From a virus, in IMG/VR virus record IMGVR_UViG_3300037070_004555, positions 1 through 20,628 of that record: a stretch of 20,628 bases of DNA; one strand, written 5' to 3'. Positions 4,238 to 16,609 of this stretch are shown here, piece by piece. The notes below the pieces were generated by a model. The model was given only the letters and a program-made list of their open reading frames with translations. It did no database searches and was not told the DNA's origin. Positions within the stretch are counted from its first letter, which is position 1. Each line of letters starts with the position of its first letter. Both the position numbers and the translations under genes were made by a program.

Positions 4238-4717
4238 ATGGCAGGTGTCTACAAGTCGGCCAATCGCAAGATGATGGCGCTCTTGGAAAAGGACTGCCAA
4301 GAGATTTGCACAGAAACGGCTAATGATTGGCGCGGATTGGCCGATGAAATGGTGCCTCAAATCGCCAATGCGCGTTTTGCGACGGACGCTCTCCGATTTT
4401 CAGCAACGGTCGCTACGGACAAGAAAAGTGACTACCCCAGAGCGATAGCAAAGGCACTCAGGGCACGGCAGGCCGCGATAGATGCCGGTGAACCCTGGGC
4501 AGCGCCGTTGGAAGTGCTGCCTGAAATCAAGCCGGTCAAGACGCCGGGTGTAGCGATGGCAATTCTGTATTACCCGGTCGGCCACGCGGTTGAAGTTCAC
4601 GAAGGCTTAGGGCAAGCGATTGGCGCCCGTCCGTTTTTGGTGCAGACGCGGCCCGGCAATATCTTCGCGGCAAGGATAGAAATGTTGGCAAAGAAGATGG
4701 AGAAAATCTCAGTTTAA
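4238..4717 (+). CDS. Minor tail protein, possibly HK97 gp10-like
   Basis: This gene encodes 159 residues from ATG 4238, with AGGTGA three bases before it; nearly the same leader (AGGTGAATCATG) recurs at 9933. The N-terminal half is helical and charged. The C-terminal part has the pattern of gp10/tail-completion proteins: a strand ending in HAVEVHEGLGQAIGARPFLV, then a helix (AARIEMLAKKMEKI). In that family the ...ARPF... segment is the best conserved part. Such proteins usually sit near the connector genes rather than between the chaperone and the tape measure, so the placement is unusual and the family call is tentative. It could be an unrelated tail assembly factor. Confidence 0.45.
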   Translation: MAGVYKSANRKMMALLEKDCQEICTETANDWRGLADEMVPQIANARFATDALRFSATVATDKKSDYPRAIAKALRARQAAIDAGEPWAAPLEVLPEIKPVKTPGVAMAILYYPVGHAVEVHEGLGQAIGARPFLVQTRPGNIFAARIEMLAKKMEKISV

Positions 4718-4734: not shown

Positions 4735-7700
4735 CCATACTCGGAACTCAGCAGCGAAGTCACGATTAACTACAATAAGTTCAAAACCAGCCTTGACAAG
4801 GTAGACAAGGCAATGACGGACTTCGCCAAAAAAGACTGGAAAATCCAACTCAACACGACGGCGTTGGACACGGCGATTTTCAAAGTAGCACAACTTGGAA
4901 AAGACCTTAAGGGCTTGGGCAACATTACCATCAAAGCCAATGTGCAGGGCGGTGGCGGATTAGGCAAGGTTAAAGATGACGCCGACGCCGCTGCCAAAGC
5001 CGCACAGAAATTTGAGGGAGCCATTCGTGGCCTTCAAGACCAGATGGCAAAGGCTGGTATTTATAACGAATGGAAAAAGATTTCCGCCGAAGAAAAACTC
5101 ACCGCCGATAATTTAGGCAACATCCGCAACCGTGTGCGTGAGGTTATCAGCGAAACTCGCGCTATGCAGGATAACTTATCCAATCGCGGGATAATGTCGC
5201 ACCAGCTAAAGTTTCAGCAGGATTGGAGTGCAGCCCTTAAAGAAAATGAGCAGCGTTTGCGCAAGTTGGCTGATACTGCGAAGCAGGCTGCGGGAACGAC
5301 GACTAAGGCACCGTCTTTGATTCGCGGCATCACGCCTGCTGACCTACGCTTGCAAAAAGACTGGAACGCGGCGCTGTTGGAAAACCAGCAACGTCTGCAA
5401 TCAATGGTGGCAATTCCACCGGTCAAAGTGCGCGGCATCACGTTAGCTGATTTAAGACTTCAAAAGGATTGGAACGCAGCGTTGGCCGAAAACGAGCGTC
5501 GCATGAAGGCGCTCGCTGGTGGCGCGGGCGGGCCTAAACTCATTCGTGGCGTTTCTGCTGCTGAACTCAAAATCCAAAAGGATTGGAGTGCCGCACTTGC
5601 CGAAGATCAAAAGCGCATGGCAGCAATGGCGCCGACGATTGATAAGGCAAACGCCTCAGCAAATCGCTTCAATGAAACCATGACCGGCGTGCTCAACACC
5701 CTCAAGCGTTACATCATTGGCTTTGTGGTCATCAAGGGCCTAATAGACCTCTTTGGTGCGGCCAAGCACGCTCTGATTGACTACAACGCCTTGCAGCAGC
5801 AGGTGTTAATCGGTTTTACCACCAACCTCAACAATAGTCGCAAGGCGGCAGAACAATTCTTTGGTGCCATCCAAACCTTTGTAGATATCAGCCCGTTTCG
5901 CCTGGAAGAGACGCTTAAATCCAGCCAATCATTGTTGGCTGTGCTGCGCGACATCCCCAGCGAAATCACGCGCATCAAAGTGGCAGAAGAGGCGCTTTAC
6001 GCCGTTGGGCAGCAGACTTCGGCGTTAGGCGGTGGCGCTCAGGAGTTTCAACAAATCTCCCGTGCCTTGCAGCAGATTTATTCCAAGCCGCATCTGAACC
6101 TTGAAGAAATCAACCGGCAGTTGATTGAAGTCGGCGTGCCCGCGTGGGACTTGCTCTCCAAAGCCTACAAGACCAACACGGCCCAAATCCAAGAGTGGAT
6201 TTCAAAGGGTATGATTCCCGGCAAGGAAGCGTTCAAGGCGCTGGTCAACCAGATGCAGCTTGCCAACTGGGGTGCGATGGAGCGTCAGGCGCAGACGTTT
6301 CGCGGCGCGCTTTCCACCATAGCCGACGTTTTGGAGCGCAAGGTAGCAAAGGCGTTTGAGCAAACCTTTTCCGACATCACCGACCATTTAGTGCAGTTCA
6401 GCAAGATTTTGCAGTCCAAAGAGTTTGAGCGGTGGGCATCGGACACGATGGGCAAGGTGCGATTCGCCTTTGCTGCCATCGGTAGTGCGATGAAGGAAAT
6501 TATGCGCTACTGGCCCGCCATCGTCGCGGGACTGGTCATTGCAACCGCGTCTAAAATCGTCGCCGGGCTGTCGGCCATCACGCTGGGCTTCAATGCTTGG
6601 GCGATGGGTGTGGTGGCGCTGGTTTTGGCCTATCAGAAGTTTTCGATAGTGCGCGACATCACCGATAGGGTCGTGGGTAGCACGCTTTACACCCTCAAGG
6701 CGTTATCTCAGGGCTTTGCTCTGACGGTGCAAAGCATAGCATCCTCACTCCAAAAGATACCGGACTTCGCGCTGGGGCCGGTTGGCATCGCTGCCAAAGC
6801 CGCATTGGGCGACCAATCGGGCTTGGCGGCGGGCGTAGCGCAGCAGTGGGATGTCACGATTGCAGCCTACAAGAGCGGCAAGGCCAAATTCGATGCCGCC
6901 ATATCTGCCGATAGCGTTAAGATTGGCGATGGCAAGTGGTTCGGCCTTGACTACAAAAAGGCGTTGGCTGAAATCAATAAGGCCATGCGCGAAAAGCCTC
7001 CTGTCTACGAACCGAAGTTGGGCGAGGGGGCAGACAAAACTGCTGCCAACGCCAAGAAAATCTACCTGCAACTCCTGGCGGCGCAAGAGAAGTTCTTTGA
7101 GCAGCAAAAGAAGAATTGGGAGTCCTTCGGCAGCGCGGTAGATAGCCTGATTGATAAAATCCGCAACTTTGGCGAGCGCAGCGAATTGGCGGCGTTGCGA
7201 GCCAAAGATTTCGGGCGCACCATCAAAGACAGCGCACTCACGGCGGCAGAGGGCCTTGCCAAGATCGTTGATAAAATGCGCGAAATCACAGGCGGGCGTG
7301 ACGCCGTGATTCAAGTGTTCCAGCGGATGCAGGAAAAGGCGCTCGAAATGGGCGCCTCGCCGGAACGCTTTGCCCAGTTGCAAGCCATCGTGCGCCGGGT
7401 GCAGTCAATGGTTGACCCGCGCCAGACGCTTGAAGGCATGGCGAAGAACGCCGAAGGCTTGAACGCGCAGATTCGCCACGAAATTGATTTGAACGTCAAG
7501 ACGCTCAACATCGAAATCGCCAATATCGGCACCATGCGCACCAACGCGCAGCAGGCCCAGCCTGCTGCGCTGTCCTCGCGTGCTGGTTCGCCTATGCAGC
7601 GCCAGACCCAATGGGAACGCGAACATACGCCAGGTTGGGTTTCGCCCTACACCATTCCAACACCATCGCCATTTTCAAAATCCGACAAGTCTTGGGCGCA

Positions 7701-9930
7701 AAGATTGGCCGAAGGCCGTGCTGCCGAAGCGCGCCGTGAGTCTGAATGGAAAGCCTTCCAGGAAAAGGAACGGCAGCAACATCTGCGGGATATTCAGAGG
7801 TCTGCTGGCGACTACGACTACACGCCCTACAAAGCTCCTGGACGCGCTCCAACTCGCGGCGGTTGGAAAGATGCCGCAGGCGGCGGTTTATGGGGCAAGG
7901 ATACGCCTACAGCCTTTTTGCCGTCAAAGTCTGGTTGGCATGATGCTACAGGCGGCGGGCTAAGCGCAGCGGTTCGGCAAGGCACCAAAGAGGGCTGGAA
8001 AGATGCAACTGGCGGCGGGCTGAGCACCAATCGGTTTGGATTGGTTAACCCGCACCAATACACCAAGCCGCAACCCAAGGCAGCGTTGGAGGCTGGTGGC
8101 AACGCTGCCTTGCCGATGTCTATTGACGCCCTTAAAGAGTCTCTAGAAAAGGCACGTTTGAAAGTCTTAGAGGGTGCCAATAAAACGCCGCGCAAATGGA
8201 TTGCACCGGACTTTAGCACACCCTGGCTCTTTGGTGCTCCGATGTTTGGGATGCCTGAAAAGACGGGCTTCAACGATGAGTCATTGAAGGGTTTGGCAGC
8301 AACCGCCGACCCCAAGATTCAGGCTTACATGAAGTCGCTGACCGGCAAGCAGGCAATGGGCATCGGGGGCGGTTTCCAAGAGGCTGGCGGCGTGTTGGAC
8401 GTGATTGACCTTGAAGCGGGTTTAAAGCGGCTCCAAGACCAAACCAAAAACTACATTGGCACGCAAAAAGAAGAGCAAACGATGCTCGTTGCTTTGCGCG
8501 AGGCCATGCTCAAATACGGCTACGAGTCGGAGAAAACCTCTGAGATTGAAGCCCGCCTGCGTGAAGTCACACGCATCAAAACGGATGCCGATTACCTGAA
8601 AGCGGCGGAATTGGACAAGCGCAGCGGCACCAATGAAGCGGGTAAGATTCTGGCGCAGCAAATGGCGGCATACGATGCTACGCAGGAGAGCGTGAAGGGC
8701 AATAAGATTCTGGCGACTGCCCTTAAAAACACTCAGGACATGATTGATGCTGTCACAAAAGCGTGGCAGGATCAAACCGATAAGTTGGACAAGTGGCGCG
8801 AGTCGGTGCGTATTTCTACCACTGAGCAGCAGTCTCAGGTTGTCACCTTGCAGCAGGAATTGAAACTGACGCAACTCTCCGGCGATTCCCGCGAGCGTTA
8901 CACGCAAGGGCTGGAAAAAGCGGCGGCAGCGCGGCGCGAAAACAACGCTTATTGGGCGGCGTGGAAAGCGGCGGTTGTAGCAGGCGCTAATGCGATGGAA
9001 CGCCTCAAGGCTGCTCAGGATGCCTTTTCGCTGCAAAAGATGATTGAAGAGTTGAAGCTGGGCATCAAAACCACCGAAACCTTCAACGCCAATCTTGCCA
9101 AAGCCCTCGAAATGGAAGCGGCGGCGGCGGCGATGATGGATAACTGGTTCACCGACTACAACGACAAGGTGAGTCAGGATGTGTCCCGTCGTGCTGAAAT
9201 CATGGGTGAAATTGGCGACCGTGCGCGTTTTCGCCTTATGCCCGAAGGCGTAGATAAGGCGGTGGCCCAGGCTACTCTGCAATGGCAGCGGTTGAATCAG
9301 GTGGCAGATAAGACCAAGCCGCTCTTTGACGCGGCGGGTTTAGCAGCGGCACAAGCGGCGTTCCGCGTAGATTATCTGGCGCAAGAATCTACGCAGCGTT
9401 GGAACCAATTCGCCTCGGACATCTCGAACGTGTTCGTGAGTGCCATCACGTCAACAGATGGCTTCGTGAAATCGCTATTGAAGAACACGGCGGATTATTT
9501 CACCCAAGTCGCCAGCCAGCTTGCCTCAAATTGGATTATCGGGCAGCTTTTGGGATTGGCTGGTGTGCCTTTCCAACAGCCCGCATTAGGTGGTCTGGCG
9601 GGTATCCTCATGGGCGGCAGCGGCAAGTCCAAAGGCCCCACACCTTCACCGATTGGCTACACTGATTATCATGTCGGCTATGCCAATGGCACTGACTATG
9701 TGCCGATGACGGGCAACTACCTGCTCCATCAGGGTGAGCGCGTCGTCACGGCATCGGAAAACAAATCCTACAATCGTGGTGGCGACACCTACAACATCAC
9801 GGTCAACGCGCCGGGCGGCAATCCGCGTGAGGTTGAAAACGCTGTGCGGCGGGCAGTGGCGCGGCCAAGCGGCGTTAGTGCCGCCAAACAGTTCCATGCC
9901 ATAAACAACGTCGGCGCCAGAAACAGTTAG
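4732..9930 (+). CDS. Tail tape measure protein
   Basis: This is the largest gene, 1732 residues if started at ATC 4732. The first ATG is at 4813 but has no ribosome binding site, and the 27 residues before it (SSEVTINYNKF, then KTSLDKVDKAM) look like a tape measure N-terminus. In order: four degenerate repeats at residues about 152-300; the tape-measure N-terminal domain (TIGR02675-like) around 424-510, with GGGAQEFQQISRALQQIYSK and LNLEEINRQLIEVGVPAWDLL; a long hydrophobic stretch at about 592-637 (WPAIVAGLVIATASKIVAGL); Ala/Gln/Lys-rich helices; a GWKDA-type repeat patch at about 1044-1097; and a C-terminus with GTDYVPMTGNYLLHQGERVV, typical of lambda-like tape measures. The protein sets tail length and is ejected into the host envelope. 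By the usual relation of about 0.15 nm per residue, the tail would be near 260 nm. Confidence 0.9.
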   Translation: MPYSELSSEVTINYNKFKTSLDKVDKAMTDFAKKDWKIQLNTTALDTAIFKVAQLGKDLKGLGNITIKANVQGGGGLGKVKDDADAAAKAAQKFEGAIRGLQDQMAKAGIYNEWKKISAEEKLTADNLGNIRNRVREVISETRAMQDNLSNRGIMSHQLKFQQDWSAALKENEQRLRKLADTAKQAAGTTTKAPSLIRGITPADLRLQKDWNAALLENQQRLQSMVAIPPVKVRGITLADLRLQKDWNAALAENERRMKALAGGAGGPKLIRGVSAAELKIQKDWSAALAEDQKRMAAMAPTIDKANASANRFNETMTGVLNTLKRYIIGFVVIKGLIDLFGAAKHALIDYNALQQQVLIGFTTNLNNSRKAAEQFFGAIQTFVDISPFRLEETLKSSQSLLAVLRDIPSEITRIKVAEEALYAVGQQTSALGGGAQEFQQISRALQQIYSKPHLNLEEINRQLIEVGVPAWDLLSKAYKTNTAQIQEWISKGMIPGKEAFKALVNQMQLANWGAMERQAQTFRGALSTIADVLERKVAKAFEQTFSDITDHLVQFSKILQSKEFERWASDTMGKVRFAFAAIGSAMKEIMRYWPAIVAGLVIATASKIVAGLSAITLGFNAWAMGVVALVLAYQKFSIVRDITDRVVGSTLYTLKALSQGFALTVQSIASSLQKIPDFALGPVGIAAKAALGDQSGLAAGVAQQWDVTIAAYKSGKAKFDAAISADSVKIGDGKWFGLDYKKALAEINKAMREKPPVYEPKLGEGADKTAANAKKIYLQLLAAQEKFFEQQKKNWESFGSAVDSLIDKIRNFGERSELAALRAKDFGRTIKDSALTAAEGLAKIVDKMREITGGRDAVIQVFQRMQEKALEMGASPERFAQLQAIVRRVQSMVDPRQTLEGMAKNAEGLNAQIRHEIDLNVKTLNIEIANIGTMRTNAQQAQPAALSSRAGSPMQRQTQWEREHTPGWVSPYTIPTPSPFSKSDKSWAQRLAEGRAAEARRESEWKAFQEKERQQHLRDIQRSAGDYDYTPYKAPGRAPTRGGWKDAAGGGLWGKDTPTAFLPSKSGWHDATGGGLSAAVRQGTKEGWKDATGGGLSTNRFGLVNPHQYTKPQPKAALEAGGNAALPMSIDALKESLEKARLKVLEGANKTPRKWIAPDFSTPWLFGAPMFGMPEKTGFNDESLKGLAATADPKIQAYMKSLTGKQAMGIGGGFQEAGGVLDVIDLEAGLKRLQDQTKNYIGTQKEEQTMLVALREAMLKYGYESEKTSEIEARLREVTRIKTDADYLKAAELDKRSGTNEAGKILAQQMAAYDATQESVKGNKILATALKNTQDMIDAVTKAWQDQTDKLDKWRESVRISTTEQQSQVVTLQQELKLTQLSGDSRERYTQGLEKAAAARRENNAYWAAWKAAVVAGANAMERLKAAQDAFSLQKMIEELKLGIKTTETFNANLAKALEMEAAAAAMMDNWFTDYNDKVSQDVSRRAEIMGEIGDRARFRLMPEGVDKAVAQATLQWQRLNQVADKTKPLFDAAGLAAAQAAFRVDYLAQESTQRWNQFASDISNVFVSAITSTDGFVKSLLKNTADYFTQVASQLASNWIIGQLLGLAGVPFQQPALGGLAGILMGGSGKSKGPTPSPIGYTDYHVGYANGTDYVPMTGNYLLHQGERVVTASENKSYNRGGDTYNITVNAPGGNPREVENAVRRAVARPSGVSAAKQFHAINNVGARNS
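5185..5628 (+). repeat. Four degenerate protein repeats inside the tape measure gene
   Basis: Four copies begin at 5185, 5323, 5431 and 5545, spaced 46, 36 and 38 codons. The core reads R-G-(I/V)-x-x-(A/H)-(D/E/Q)-L-(R/K)-(L/I/F)-Q-(K/Q)-D-W-(N/S)-A-A-L-x-E-(N/D). The copies are clearly related in protein but diverged in DNA, so the duplication is old or under protein-level selection. They lie before the tape-measure domain and are probably helical. Confidence 0.8.
7861..8022 (+). repeat. Three short G-W-(K/H)-D-A repeats in the tape measure gene
   Basis: The ten-residue motif G-W-(K/H)-D-A-(A/T)-G-G-G-L occurs at 7861, 7933 and 7993, spaced 24 and 20 codons, in a Gly/Pro/Lys-rich part of the tape measure. 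The surrounding text is low in predicted helix, unlike the rest of the protein. Confidence 0.75.
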
Positions 9931-9941
9931 GTAGGTGAATC

Positions 9942-10103
9942 ATGCCAACTCGCATCCTCTGCGCCGACTGTTATAACCCGCCGTGCTGAGGGCGTCCCAT
10001 AACCTGCGTGACGGGTGCGGACGGTGTAACGGTGTGGCTTTGCAAAGCGTGCCAAAAGAGACGAGAGAGATTGAAGGAACCGTCAGCGCCGCTGATGCGT
10101 TAA
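9942..10103 (+). pseudogene. Small zinc-ribbon reading frame with in-frame TGA (broken or recoded)
   Basis: ATG 9942 follows the tape measure stop by 11 bases and has AGGTGA before it, the same leader as the gene at 4238. The frame reads 15 codons, meets TGA at 9987-9989, then continues for 37 more codons to TAA 10101-10103. The whole encodes a protein-like 53-residue product with C7-x2-C10, C15, C22 and C34-x2-C37; two CxxC pairs 23 residues apart suit a small zinc ribbon, followed by a basic tail (KRRERLKE). Both halves look coding, and the second half contributes one Cys pair. Other genes here use TGA as a normal stop, so the phage does not reassign it generally. Options are a recent inactivating mutation, read-through (Trp or another residue), selenocysteine, or a sequencing error. 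I see no clear selenocysteine hairpin after the TGA. Confidence 0.5.
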
Positions 10104-10180
10104 GCCGTTGCAGGTCGCGTGGCGTGCGCACGTCGGGATAACCTGAAAGGGGAGTGAAGGTTCGATTCCTTCCGGCGCGT
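10085..10180 (+). ncRNA. tRNA-like element (T-arm plus acceptor strand)
   Basis: GAAGG-TTCGATT-CCTTC at 10156-10172 is a perfect T-arm with the canonical T-loop. The next seven bases, CGGCGCG, pair with AGCGCCG at 10085-10091 in six of seven positions. The 96-base span would suit a tRNA with a long variable arm. The D-arm and anticodon arm are not convincing: the best anticodon stem (10117-10121 with 10129-10133) gives a seven-base loop lacking the invariant T33, and the D-loop lacks GG. No CCA is encoded. It may be a degenerate tRNA, a tRNA-like structure in a longer RNA, or a tRNA remnant. Its 5' end overlaps the last codons of the zinc-ribbon frame. Confidence 0.3.
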
Positions 10181-10325
10181 CCTGCTCTGAAATACTTGGA
10201 ACGTGACAAATCCTGAGCGCGTAGTAAATGCGGCTCTGGTGCGTTATGCGTAGTGGAGCCTGGCCCACCTATCGTGTGGCGTAGTAACGGTTGTTAGCGT
10301 TCGAGGCGGCAACCACAAATTAGGC
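10104..10325 (+). other. Stretch without a gene, with a thrice-repeated GCGTAGT
   Basis: All + frames are dense with stops and no protein-like frame is seen on either strand. Besides the tRNA-like element it contains a 10-base palindrome CGTGCGCACG (10123-10132), a small hairpin GGCTC (10232-10236) with GAGCC (10256-10260), and the heptamer GCGTAGT at 10219, 10248 and 10279, spaced 29 and 31 bases. I found no convincing -35/-10 promoter. It may be a structured RNA or a regulatory region for the winged-helix gene downstream. Confidence 0.4.
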
Positions 10326-10383
10326 AAACCCGTTTTCTCTGAGTGCTCGAACCACTCCACAGGGAAAGCGGGTTTTGCATTTT
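10326..10383 (+). terminator. Strong intrinsic terminator before the small-gene cassette
   Basis: The arm at 10326-10341 pairs with 10360-10375 over 16 positions, two of them G-U, and an inner stem GAGTG/CACTC extends the structure. TTTTGCATTTT follows, partly as the stem's end. The A-rich opposite side means it could also work on the minus strand. It ends at the base before the AGGAG (10384-10388) of the next gene, so transcription entering from the tape measure would mostly stop here unless antiterminated. Confidence 0.8.
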
Positions 10384-10394
10384 AGGAGTAAACC

Positions 10395-10712
10395 ATGACT
10401 GAAACCATTCAAGCCGTAGAGCCGCCGTGCCCGCTTGACCACGCGATTCTCAAACTGCTCATCGCCAAGCGCCGCACCGTCCATAGCATCACGCACTGGC
10501 TCAAACTCTGTGGCCGCGACACCGACACTTTTGAGGTGCGCGAATACCTGCGCCGTCTGCATAGCTGCGGGCGCGTGCTAACCTTTGTGCCGCCGCACGA
10601 AAGCCGCGACGCTACCGAAGTCTTTGCCCTGTCCAATGCGGGCTTTGAGGCGCTGACGGCATTTCTGCGGGCAAGCTCAAGAACGGAGACGAATCCTTAT
10701 GGAAAGCGTTGA
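10395..10712 (+). CDS. Probable winged-helix DNA-binding protein
   Basis: This gene encodes 105 residues from ATG 10395, with AGGAG (10384-10388) at a six-base gap. The pattern suits a small winged-helix fold: a first helix (LDHAILKLLIAKRRT), a second (VHSITHWLKL), a putative recognition helix (TFEVREYLRRLHSCGRV), a short wing with RVLTFV...TEVFAL, and a C-terminal LSNAGFEALTAFL resembling the end of PadR- or MarR-like domains. It would bind DNA as a regulator. No ligand or metal motif is evident. It lies right after a strong terminator and heads a cassette of five small genes, suggesting local or late-gene control. The last 14 bases overlap the next gene. The fold is inferred from pattern only. 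Confidence 0.55.
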   Translation: MTETIQAVEPPCPLDHAILKLLIAKRRTVHSITHWLKLCGRDTDTFEVREYLRRLHSCGRVLTFVPPHESRDATEVFALSNAGFEALTAFLRASSRTETNPYGKR

Positions 10713-11166
10713 AACCAAGCCGCGCACCGGCATTGTTGGCTCTGTGCGCGAGGTTACAGTAGATGATGCGGATAAGGTTGCCTACATTCGGAATCGGATG
10801 CACTACAAAGTTGGAGCCGCCATTTGCGAGAAAATAGAAGATGGTCGTGCCTATGCGGTGACGCTGGCATGGCATGACGAATGGACAGGCGGCTTTGAGT
10901 TCTATCCAAAAGTGCTACGGCTTCAACTTCACGTCACTATCCTACTCCGCCATTGGCAAGACGCCCAAGTAGGCGAGGATGTGGTGCCGGATGCCTTTGC
11001 CTCGAAGGATGATGATATTTTGGAGTTCTACGCAACACCTGAACGGATGCGTAGAATCTATGGAGACACGCCGCCGAAGATGGTCAATGAAACTGACTTA
11101 GACACTTGGAGATTCCAGCGCATCACCACCAACGGCAAGACGGTAGCATGGAGGCGAGTGGCATGA
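10699..11166 (+). CDS. Hypothetical protein of the accessory cassette
   Basis: This gene encodes 155 residues from ATG 10699, with GGAG at 10685-10688 and a ten-base gap; it overlaps the previous gene by 14 bases. The sequence is mixed alpha/beta, with paired Trp (AWHDEWTGGFEF) and an acidic middle (ASKDDDILEFY), and a C-terminal strand (TNGKTVAWRRVA). No membrane segment, signal peptide or catalytic motif is visible and I do not recognise a family. Its stop overlaps the next start as ATGA, so the cassette is translated in a coupled way. Confidence 0.65.
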   Translation: MESVETKPRTGIVGSVREVTVDDADKVAYIRNRMHYKVGAAICEKIEDGRAYAVTLAWHDEWTGGFEFYPKVLRLQLHVTILLRHWQDAQVGEDVVPDAFASKDDDILEFYATPERMRRIYGDTPPKMVNETDLDTWRFQRITTNGKTVAWRRVA

Positions 11167-11339
11167 ATCAATGGGAAGCGCGGATTCTAAGAAACCCACT
11201 GACGTATGAAGTCCTTACTCATCCCAGTGGCGGGATGTATTACGCGATTTACTACAACGGGGAGTATTTGGGCCAATCCGTTGGCTACAGCGAAAGGCAC
11301 GCAATTCGGGGTTGGTGCTACGCCCATGCGTCGGACTGA
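11163..11339 (+). CDS. Small hypothetical protein, ATGA-coupled
   Basis: This gene encodes 58 residues from ATG 11163, which overlaps the previous TGA; GGAGG at 11150-11154 gives a good ribosome binding site. The frame is open further upstream, but that part is a shadow of the preceding gene. The protein is aromatic, with MYYAIYYNGEYLGQSVGYSE suggesting two short strands, and ends in a helix (RHAIRGWCYAHA). The family is not recognised. The layout resembles small domains that recognise a strand-turn-strand ligand, but no function can be given. Confidence 0.6.
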   Translation: MNQWEARILRNPLTYEVLTHPSGGMYYAIYYNGEYLGQSVGYSERHAIRGWCYAHASD

Positions 11340-11362
11340 GTAGCACGGCTTAAAAGGTGCTG

Positions 11363-11575
11363 ATGAACATGACTTGGACAAAGCGCATCAGGCGCCAGAC
11401 CGTCCACGAACTCACCAATGACAAAGGCGTGGTTGTAGCTTGCATTTATGCGGAATACGGCCAGCGTTACGGCTATTGGGCCTCGCCGCCATCGGGCGGA
11501 CTGCGTTACAGTTGCGGCACTTGCACTTTGAAGGATGCGAGAAAAAGAGTGCAGCAAATCGTTGAAGGGAGATGA
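11363..11575 (+). CDS. Small hypothetical protein
   Basis: This gene encodes 70 residues from ATG 11363, with AAAAGG at 11352-11357 five bases before. A GTG at 11357 lies inside that site and is less likely. The product starts with a basic stretch (TKRIRRQTVHEL), then two aromatic strands (VVACIYAEYGQRYGYWA), a CGTC pair and a C-terminal helix (KDARKRVQQIVEGR). It shares the strand-strand-helix layout of the previous gene, and the two could be distant paralogues, but identity is low. No known family is recognised. Confidence 0.55.
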   Translation: MNMTWTKRIRRQTVHELTNDKGVVVACIYAEYGQRYGYWASPPSGGLRYSCGTCTLKDARKRVQQIVEGR

Positions 11576-11581
11576 CGAGCA

Positions 11582-11812
11582 ATGGCAACTGAACAAGAAA
11601 TCGGACAGGCCGCAATTCGGCGGCGTGTGCTGAAAATGGCTGATGATCTGGCGTTGAAGTTGAGCATTGAAAGCGGTTGGCGCATGGAAGCCTACCCGCT
11701 ACGCGATGTCTTGCGTAAGATCGGCGCCAACTACCCGGTGATTCACGATGCTGAATTTGCTGAGTTGGTGGCGGCGATTGACAGCATCATTTACTTGCTC
11801 AAGGTGAGATAG
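11582..11812 (+). CDS. Small helical hypothetical protein
   Basis: This gene encodes 76 residues from ATG 11582, six bases after the previous stop; GGGAGA near 11568 is a rather distant ribosome binding site. The product looks fully helical: AAIRRRVLKMADDLALKL, then PLRDVLRKIGANYP, then EFAELVAAIDSIIYLLKV. The last helix is hydrophobic but short for a membrane span. The family is not recognised. It is the last gene of the accessory cassette before the distal tail genes resume. Confidence 0.55.
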   Translation: MATEQEIGQAAIRRRVLKMADDLALKLSIESGWRMEAYPLRDVLRKIGANYPVIHDAEFAELVAAIDSIIYLLKVR

Positions 11813-11857
11813 CTTACACGGTGCGCAACGGCTTCGATGAGGCATTGGAGTATGACG

Positions 11858-13627
11858 ATGAAACGCAGATGCGGTAAAATGAACGGTGGTTGGCTTTGTG
11901 CGCTCGGATTAGCCGTTATGGTGCTTGGGGCCATAAGGGGACAATACGAGGCGCTGCGTGGCGTAGAAGCGCGAAGAACGGCCCTTGTGCAGGCCAAGCG
12001 CGCAAAGCAACTGACGGCGGGCAAGAAACTCAACCAAAAGGCGAAGAAACACTCTACCATGTCGCTCTTTTACCACGTCCAATTTCCTACCAACACAACG
12101 GCGCCGACAGGCTACCAAGACCCGACGCTGGTAGGGCACTGGGAAATTTGGGACGGCGCGACGTTGGCGGTGTTGGCCTCACACGAAGGTGTAGGCGAGG
12201 ATGGCGACTTTGGCTTGGCGCATAAGCCGGGCGTCACGGTAGAGTTCAGTGAGATTTGGGTAAAACTGCCGGACGGCCAACCCGTTGCTTCGCCGTCCGG
12301 CATTTACATTTATTGGACGTGGCGCGATACGGTGCCTTTCGGTGCGCGCACCGAAACTTACTTTCAAGATTTAGGTGTTTCGCCGCTTGACACTGATTGG
12401 TTTTGCACCACCAAAGACGATGTAACTGCGTGCTTGGAAGGCGTCGAAGAGTATTTCACCTATGGCGGCTATGTCGTCAATTCAGGGCCGCACGCTGATT
12501 TAGCCGCTTGCCAAGCAGTTTGCGCCGAAGGCTGCGCTACACCGCCTAACGCCTGTGCCACGGCCAAAACGCACTGCCTCGAATACGTGCTTGACGGCTC
12601 TTGCTCCGAAGCCTTTTGCGGCTTCATTATCACTGATTGGGATTGGTCAGGTGATGTAACGGGAACGGGTGAAATCCTCACCGGCACGTTCGGCAGCGAT
12701 GGCGTGAAGACGATCACGTTAGTTGTGACGGACAGCGACGGTAAGGAATCCGACCCGCTGGAATTTACCTTGCTCGTCAAGCCGCTTGAAGATGATTTAA
12801 GTTGCAACTGGGGCGGCGGAGGCGGAGGCGGCAATCCCAACCCAGGCGGCGGGCCGGGCTATTGCACGCCCGCCAACGTGCCAAACGCTATCGCAGAGTT
12901 GGCCGGGTTTGGCTTCTACAATCCAAGCCTGTTGCGCTTCCCGACTCAGTATTGCGGCGGCACGTCAGGCTTTGAGCAGCACAGTGTCGCGCCTGAGTTT
13001 CGCACGCGCATTGATGAGTTTCCCGGCAGCGAATCGCGGATAAGCTACGATGAGAATGGCCGGCGCGTGGTGGAAATCAGCAGCATGGTTTTCGATGAAG
13101 CCGCCAAAGATGAGTGGGAAGCGTTTCTGGGATTGACGGATAACGGCGCTAAATCCTTCCTCTACTTCGACACGGCGCGGCACATCTTGGATGCTGAGGT
13201 TATTGGTGTTTCGGACGGGATAGAGACAGAGTATCAACTGACTTTCACACGCACGTTCTTGGAGCAATCCAAGACACTGGATGTGTTCTATCCCGATGAA
13301 GCATACCCGGCGACCTATCACCCGCAGTTTGGCATGATGGCGGCGATGTTGGCCCATGCCACGCAATTCCTGACACTGCTCATGGACGGCGAAGAATCGG
13401 TTATTGGTTGGGCTGTCAGTCGCGGCACGGAAGCGGCACCGGGCGGGCTAATTGTGTTGGCAGGCGCACCGGCGCCAGGCACGGTGATTAGCGTTGCGGG
13501 ACACTTCTACCTGAGAATGATAATTGAGTCACCGGCAGCGCCGATGCTTAGGGCGATTGGCAGCGGGCAGTATGAACTCGCCACGCCGCTGCGCCTGATT
13601 GAAACCGAGGAGGTTGGCAACCTGTGA
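11858..13627 (+). CDS. Modular tail protein: membrane segment, Cys-rich, PKD-like and DUF2460-like parts
   Basis: This gene encodes 589 residues from ATG 11858, with GGAG at 11847-11850 seven bases before. ATG 11837 in frame would add seven residues but lacks a site. Parts in order: basic start and membrane segment (about 12-28, LCALGLAVMVLGAI); a Lys/Arg/Gln-rich helix (about 33-66); a second possible start at residue 68 (MSLFYHVQF, ATG 12059, weak site); a beta-rich part; nine Cys within 183-254; a PKD/Ig-like domain (255-312, GVKTITLVVTDSDGKES); a Gly/Asn/Pro linker (319-334); then a DUF2460-like part to the end (APGGLIVLAGAPAPGTVISV; FYLRMIIESP). The C-terminus aligns in layout with the next gene. 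DUF2460 proteins are distal tail components in gene transfer agents and related phages. The N-terminal membrane segment is odd for a tail protein and may be a fused small gene. Confidence 0.65.
   Translation: MKRRCGKMNGGWLCALGLAVMVLGAIRGQYEALRGVEARRTALVQAKRAKQLTAGKKLNQKAKKHSTMSLFYHVQFPTNTTAPTGYQDPTLVGHWEIWDGATLAVLASHEGVGEDGDFGLAHKPGVTVEFSEIWVKLPDGQPVASPSGIYIYWTWRDTVPFGARTETYFQDLGVSPLDTDWFCTTKDDVTACLEGVEEYFTYGGYVVNSGPHADLAACQAVCAEGCATPPNACATAKTHCLEYVLDGSCSEAFCGFIITDWDWSGDVTGTGEILTGTFGSDGVKTITLVVTDSDGKESDPLEFTLLVKPLEDDLSCNWGGGGGGGNPNPGGGPGYCTPANVPNAIAELAGFGFYNPSLLRFPTQYCGGTSGFEQHSVAPEFRTRIDEFPGSESRISYDENGRRVVEISSMVFDEAAKDEWEAFLGLTDNGAKSFLYFDTARHILDAEVIGVSDGIETEYQLTFTRTFLEQSKTLDVFYPDEAYPATYHPQFGMMAAMLAHATQFLTLLMDGEESVIGWAVSRGTEAAPGGLIVLAGAPAPGTVISVAGHFYLRMIIESPAAPMLRAIGSGQYELATPLRLIETEEVGNL
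12267..12302 (+). repeat. Perfect 10-bp inverted repeat inside the modular tail gene
   Basis: TGCCGGACGG (12267-12276) and its exact complement (12293-12302) flank a 16-base loop, followed by TTTACATTTATT. It is a terminator-like hairpin inside coding sequence, at about residue 137-149 of the product. Confidence 0.7.
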
Positions 13628-14340
13628 GCGTCTACGATGAAGCTGTCGCGGGGGCGGGCGGTGGTGCTGAATGGGGCGGCTTGCTGGCCTTTCCTGACTA
13701 CCTGTTTGCGGGTTGCCAGAGTGGGCCGGAACGCGCCCGCGACATGGTGGCGGCACGGCGTAGACGCCAACGGTTTGTGCTGTGGGATGCCCCGCGACGG
13801 CGCATTGAACTCGAAAACTCAATGGTCAAGCATGAGGACAAGGATAACGTCGAGGCGTTAGAGCAAATCGTGTTCGGGCAGCGCGACACGTTTTTGTATT
13901 TTGACTTGGTTTCCCATACACTCACAGATGAGCCGTTGGGCACCGGCGATGGCGCGACAACCGCCTTTCCAATCTACAAGCGCCGCACTTACGAAGGCCG
14001 CGAGCACTTGCAGCGGATAACGTGCCCAAACCACAACTACCCGCAGCAATTCTTGCCCGATGGCAACGTGTGGCGCGAGACTGAACTACTGGTGGTCAAG
14101 ATAGACGGCACGCCTACGACGGCCTGGACAGTGAGCAGGGCAACGGCGGATGTGCCGGGCATGATTACCTTTGCGGTGGCGCCGGATGCTGATGCGGTGC
14201 TGACGGTGAGCGGCTCCTACTGGACGCTGGTGCGGCTGGTGAATAAGTCCATTCCGCTGCAACCGTTGAGCCTGGGTTGGTTCCAGGTGTCGGGCAGCGT
14301 GCCGTTGGTGGAGCCGCAAGGCCAGAGGTTGCCGTTATGA
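13624..14340 (+). CDS. DUF2460-like distal tail protein
   Basis: This gene encodes 238 residues from GTG 13624, whose codon overlaps the previous TGA (GTGA); AGGAGG at 13608-13613 is the ribosome binding site. The C-terminal two thirds show the DUF2460 layout: an early strand block (RQRFVLWDAPRRRIELEN), then GTGDGATTAFPIYKR near residue 107-120, a strand with VKIDGTPTTAWTVSR, then MITFAVAPDADAVLTVSG and YWTLVRLV. In gene transfer agents the equivalent protein forms the distal ring between the tube and the hub. The preceding gene ends in a related domain, so these two are probably tandem paralogues that may form one mixed ring. Confidence 0.75.
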   Translation: MSVYDEAVAGAGGGAEWGGLLAFPDYLFAGCQSGPERARDMVAARRRRQRFVLWDAPRRRIELENSMVKHEDKDNVEALEQIVFGQRDTFLYFDLVSHTLTDEPLGTGDGATTAFPIYKRRTYEGREHLQRITCPNHNYPQQFLPDGNVWRETELLVVKIDGTPTTAWTVSRATADVPGMITFAVAPDADAVLTVSGSYWTLVRLVNKSIPLQPLSLGWFQVSGSVPLVEPQGQRLPL

Positions 14341-16282: not shown

Positions 16283-16609
16283 ATGCCGGTAGATAAAGAG
16301 GCTGTTGAGAGGACTCTGCTAAACGACAAGGCATTGCAGGCGGCACTTGCCGAAGCCCAAGCAGTGCAAGACGAAATGAGCCAAGAACGTGAGTTAAGGC
16401 AACGGCGCAATATGCAAAAGAACGTCAGTGTTGAATCAGTTGAAGATTTTCACACACACTGCAACTTTTGCGGCCAAAATCTGATTCTTGGTCAACTGGC
16501 AGTGTTCGGACAATCGTTTTACGGAAGCCACGTCATTTGCTCATCTTGCCTAGGCGAAGCAATGGGTGAGCTTGTAGGGCGCATTGAAGCAGTGACCAAA
16601 AAGGATTAG
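16283..16609 (+). CDS. Small four-Cys zinc-finger protein
   Basis: This gene encodes 108 residues from ATG 16283, with AGGAGG at 16273-16278. The frame is open upstream but that part shadows the preceding gene. Residues 1-45 form a charged helix that is likely a coiled coil (ALAEAQAVQDEMSQERELRQ). A zinc-binding module follows: C60-x2-C63 (HCNFCGQN) and C86-x2-C89 (VICSSCLGEA), close in style to the ClpX N-terminal zinc finger, which also has CxFCG and ICxxC. A short helix ends the protein. It may bind a protein partner; DNA or RNA binding is possible. It lies within distal tail genes but is probably not part of the virion core. Confidence 0.65.
   Translation: MPVDKEAVERTLLNDKALQAALAEAQAVQDEMSQERELRQRRNMQKNVSVESVEDFHTHCNFCGQNLILGQLAVFGQSFYGSHVICSSCLGEAMGELVGRIEAVTKKD

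Follow-up and report, generated by a model that had tools for sequence, protein, structure and literature searches.

An interrupted candidate zinc-finger gene behind the tape-measure gene of a phage tail module

Phage Q-beta decodes a leaky UGA as Trp about 5% of the time (PMC6071253), and some phages are known to have reassigned a stop codon (codes 4 and 15; PMC11210395). The bacterial SECIS element is positioned directly 3′ of the UGA (PMC9622424). Here we describe an in-frame TGA in a 20.6-kb virus record (IMG/VR record IMGVR_UViG_3300037070_004555; the whole stretch of 20,628 nucleotides that was analysed is referred to as the window). The record contains a phage tail module with gene-transfer-agent-like (GTA-like) tail-tip genes, in which two proteins of the DUF2460 type, a hub protein (PF09931) and an Rcc01698-like protein are also encoded.

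A frame of 53 codons opens with ATG 9942 shortly 3′ of the tape-measure stop, is interrupted by TGA at 9987-9989 and closes with TAA at 10101-10103 (Table 1). The translation of 9942-10103 consists of MPTRILCADCYNPPC, a stop, GRPITCVTGADGVTVWLCKACQKRRERLKEPSAPLMR and a second stop. It bore out every coordinate of the initial annotation: the start, the TGA, the CADC pair before it and the CKAC pair past it. The two pairs are 23 positions apart if the TGA position is counted, and they share one reading only when the TGA is decoded as a residue. We put first, with the chances for and against it about equal, the view that a nonsense codon, which may be natural or a consensus error, interrupts a small orphan C4 zinc-finger gene at 9942-10103.

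Table 1 Position and basis of the features at the interrupted frame
Feature	Position	Strand	Basis
Tape measure	4813-9930		Pfam TMP_3; TAG stop at 9928-9930
Shine-Dalgarno sequence AGGTGA	9933..9938	+	Six-base match to the anti-Shine-Dalgarno complement; ATG 3 bases on
First 15 codons (MPTRILCADCYNPPC) with first CxxC	9942..9986	+	Translation; synonymous usage gene-like, only 14 codons
In-frame TGA, next base G	9987..9989	+	Sequence, translation
Open frame 3′ of the TGA with second CxxC (CKAC) and TAA end	9990..10103	+	Translation; codon evidence ambiguous
Competing -1 open frame with CxxC (CGRC)	9983..10141	+	ORF list; codon scores equal to frame 0

The start site of the 9942 frame is strong. 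AGGTGA at the same 3-nt spacing also precedes the intact gene at 4238, and a six-base Shine-Dalgarno match is present at 5 of the 342 plus-strand ATGs of the window. The good start and site noted in the initial annotation were thus confirmed.

Profile searches with the read-through, in which both sides of the TGA are joined, yielded weak Pfam matches to zf-dskA_traR (E 6.7e-4) and FYVE_2 (E 0.008), both below the curated cut-offs (20 vs 24.9 bits and 16.8 vs 27.2 bits, respectively). For comparison, the best Pfam match of five scrambles, made by hand with the cysteine positions roughly kept, had an E value of 0.028. A search of NCBIfam gave no match and a search of PHROG none better than E 0.54. 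Since no profile match was above cut-off, the read-through was filed under no named family.

A single-sequence AlphaFold2 model of the read-through, of no more than moderate confidence (pLDDT 65, pTM 0.45; pLDDT 75-78 over residues 11-40), has strands at residues 20-24 and 30-34, followed by a helix spanning 35-44, and CKAC sits at the junction of hairpin and helix. We take this order, a hairpin and then a helix with CKAC at the junction, to be the treble-clef finger arrangement. Foldseek matches of the model were not significant, several of them being L24e-type ribosomal proteins and a Rim2 zinc finger. A viral structure library yielded nothing significant, and VIA-align gave only Z scores of 2.4 and 2.1. 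Pfam matches below the curated cut-offs and insignificant fold matches count against a broken gene. The start site, the C4 motif and the single-sequence fold lend moderate support to the view that the 9942 frame represents a small gene for a zinc-binding protein, at present or in the past.

According to the reading that we prefer, this gene would be one of several small ones that were inserted 3′ of the tape measure and 5′ of the DUF2460-type tail genes. Both sides of the TGA would form one treble-clef or zinc-ribbon protein, and the intact product would presumably be a small metal-stabilised binding protein. The nonsense codon at position 16 would have arisen as a natural inactivating change in the phage or as an error in the metagenome consensus. 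With the sequence as it stands, translation from 9942 would end at the TGA and release a peptide of 15 residues with only one half of the zinc site. The TGA would amount to a loss of function.

The gene neighbourhood is in agreement with such an insertion. By far the longest gap of the otherwise packed window (464 bases) is located 3′ of the tape measure. In the GTA-like relatives Paracoccus R3, Roseobacter RDJL3 and Microcystis Mwe-JY26 a DUF2460-like gene directly follows the tape measure, and for this reason 9931-11836 appears to be a cassette of small genes that was inserted. The long gap and the gene order of the relatives fit an inserted, dispensable cassette, which counts for a broken gene.

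The genes that separate the tape measure from the DUF2460-type genes, at 9931-11836, are small orphans. Two neighbouring DUF2460-like proteins, apparently the result of a duplication, are encoded by 11837-13627 and 13624-14340; in the protein encoded by 11837-13627 a PKD-like domain precedes the DUF2460 part. Furthermore, the product of 16283-16609 is small and intact, is predicted to form a long helix and carries the C4 motif CNFC...CSSC; no convincing family match was obtained for it. It is a putative second orphan zinc-knuckle protein of the same tail region.

Homologues, whether intact or broken, were not found, and this counts against a broken gene. By tblastn, the 53-residue reading had no homologue in 50,697 phage records or 72,556 plasmids; codon 16, which the initial annotation had hoped to compare among related phages, was consequently left with no counterpart. 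Pattern scans, which reach close relatives only, did not detect a homologue either, whether in IMG/VR or among 84,980 genomes of bacteria and archaea. When the tape measure and further tail proteins served as queries, only distant phages or nothing came up. No comparable small C4 gene was seen in the GTA-like relatives or in 80 IMG/VR loci found with a hub protein alignment, and tblastn of the reading against both sets gave nothing credible.

Several single matches were rejected. One match in IMG/VR and one in a Paenibacillus genome lie in a different frame within a longer ORF and are attributed to chance. The phage matches in Microbacterium Big4 and Mycobacterium Constella (E 1-10) fall in frames that are not annotated genes and have no C4 motif, while the plasmid matches (E 5-10) overlap annotated genes that are unrelated. 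A relative of the tape measure shows only short similarity and carries an unrelated gene directly after it.

Among the alternatives the one that survives best, although we consider it rather unlikely, is that no zinc-finger gene exists. The ATG would then open a 15-codon peptide or nothing important, and the second CxxC would be a chance occurrence in a non-coding, partly tRNA-like gap. The initial annotation had stated that both sides of the TGA look coding. This applies only in part: before the TGA, synonymous usage is gene-like, though over no more than 14 codons. After the TGA it is intermediate (P 0.15 vs the composition null, 0.037 vs genes), and the codon score of this part lies below that of 99.7% of in-frame segments from large genes. 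Such a codon usage, unlike that of large genes, counts against a broken gene; together with the failure to find homologues, the low score suits a non-coding stretch. Some intact small genes, e.g. the gene at 16283, score equally low on synonymous usage. This stretch has a CxxC both in frame 0 and in frame -1, and one-stop C4 motifs are expected 0.33 times per whole shuffled window if no start site is demanded; both points favour the absence of a gene.

Gaps beside tail genes can hold RNA elements. With tRNA-like signals just downstream, this also counts against a broken gene, and the signals, which begin at 10096, overlap the end of the frame, as would be expected if the gap were non-coding. 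The shuffles point the other way once the start site is included. An ATG followed by CxxC...CxxC with one internal stop was obtained in 19 of 3000 dinucleotide shuffles of 9931-10394, and when a Shine-Dalgarno match of at least 5 bases was added, in none of 6000 shuffles of the gap, figures that concern a feature chosen after the fact. Start site and C4 motif together exceed chance. The hairpin-helix model, in which CKAC marks the start of the helix, likewise speaks against a chance occurrence of the second pair.

Two tRNA-like elements are located in the gap. Both were reported by ARAGORN at relaxed thresholds only: 10096-10182 at 90%, at which 5 of 500 shuffles had a match, and 10234-10319 at 85% only, where two or more matches were seen in 2 of 500 shuffles. 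In the first element the T-arm (GAAGGTTCGATTCCTTC) is near-perfect and the variable region is long, as in tRNA-Leu; the two elements have a 20-base stretch in common with 80% identity. The anticodons proposed by ARAGORN are GTG and ATC, neither of which belongs to an opal suppressor. Weak blastn matches mostly cluster on the T-arm GTGAAGGTTCGATTCCTTCCGG, which resembles an annotated phage tRNA-Leu; matches to this T-arm fall in unannotated stretches of other phages. An unannotated segment of Vibrio phage 2.275.O (181603-182229), for which ARAGORN made no call, resembles both halves of tRNA-Leu around an insertion. The best plus-strand Rfam matches in the gap were tRNA-like and insignificant (tRNA-Sec 15.3 bits vs a cut-off of 47). 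The two elements may be remnants of tRNA genes or else tRNA-like RNAs. In addition, 10240-10385 folds far better than shuffles (z -4.3) and includes a long imperfect hairpin (10326-10375) just 5′ of the gene at 10395. This region is a possible terminator or structured RNA.

An improbable alternative is that the gene was broken by the insertion or deletion of one base, real or introduced as a consensus error, in which case the -1 frame would supply a different C4 protein. This frame was overlooked in the initial annotation. Because it is open 3′ of the TGA and has its own CxxC, a one-base frameshift stays a candidate, and this counts against a nonsense codon as the cause of the break. It comprises 52 open codons with a suitably spaced CxxC and a codon score equal to that of frame 0. 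Joining the first 14 codons to it results in another C4 protein, which matches zinc_ribbon_6 weakly (E 0.044). Frame 0 is favoured on account of its better sub-threshold Pfam matches and the hairpin-helix model of the read-through; the zinc-finger scores of the read-through are better than those of the frameshift-joined reading, and tblastn of the latter gave nothing beyond chance. Two further ways past the TGA were rejected: a +1 frameshift at the TGA reaches a TAA after four codons, and a restart at GTG 10008 would have no visible Shine-Dalgarno sequence and include only one CxxC.

Programmed decoding of the TGA, as leaky Trp read-through or as selenocysteine, by which a fraction of translations would yield the full zinc-finger protein, is very improbable, although the frame is open on both sides, a cysteine lies just before the TGA, the C4 site is complete only past it and the leaky UGA of Q-beta offers a precedent (PMC6071253). 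As the initial annotation had remarked, other genes here end in TGA: it is the stop of 6 of the 19 window genes, including the next two genes downstream, from which it follows that the genetic code is standard. A genome-wide code change (code 4 or 25) was dismissed on the same grounds. At default thresholds a tRNA search of the window found none, and no homologues were found that show a conserved TGA. The RNA from 9987 to 10040 folds with -14.5 kcal/mol and is less stable than its shuffles (-17.4 kcal/mol, z +1.0); there is thus no sign of a SECIS, the criterion for a bacterial selenoprotein. The gene-specific recoding proposed in the initial annotation therefore received no positive support, and of its two options, recoding or fresh inactivation, the latter, widened to include a consensus error, is the better half. 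That a tiny zinc-finger protein of the late region is made only when a ribosome passes one UGA, with a metal site contributed from both sides, we likewise hold to be very improbable.

If the TGA were recoded, the locus would offer a rare example, from a tailed phage, of UGA decoding that is specific to one gene and controls a metal-binding protein. On present evidence an ordinary broken or mis-sequenced orphan gene is more likely than recoding. The locus also gives reason for caution, since more than one frame can yield an appealing C4 reading that spans a stop.

Compared to stop-reassigned phages (PMC11210395), with which the locus has a putative gene with an in-frame stop in common, TGA ends at least 6 genes here, the interruption affects a single frame, and an opal suppressor tRNA was not called in the window. 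The Q-beta coat/A1 read-through likewise involves an in-frame UGA in a phage with an open frame beyond it; however, in Q-beta a complete coat protein precedes the UGA and a long extension follows, whereas here the part before the stop is 15 residues long and no sign of read-through was found. The CxxC...CxxC spacing, the predicted hairpin followed by a helix and the basic tail are shared with small C4 treble-clef or zinc-ribbon proteins of phages, and DksA/TraR-type fingers are the nearest Pfam match of the read-through. In contrast to those proteins, the frame at 9942 contains a stop, reaches only profile scores under the curated cut-offs and has no detectable sequence relative. Nonsense pseudogenes and consensus errors in metagenome contigs differ from 9942-10103 in that no intact relative was found for the latter, and resemble it in that the start site is intact and the small frame would be open but for one early stop.
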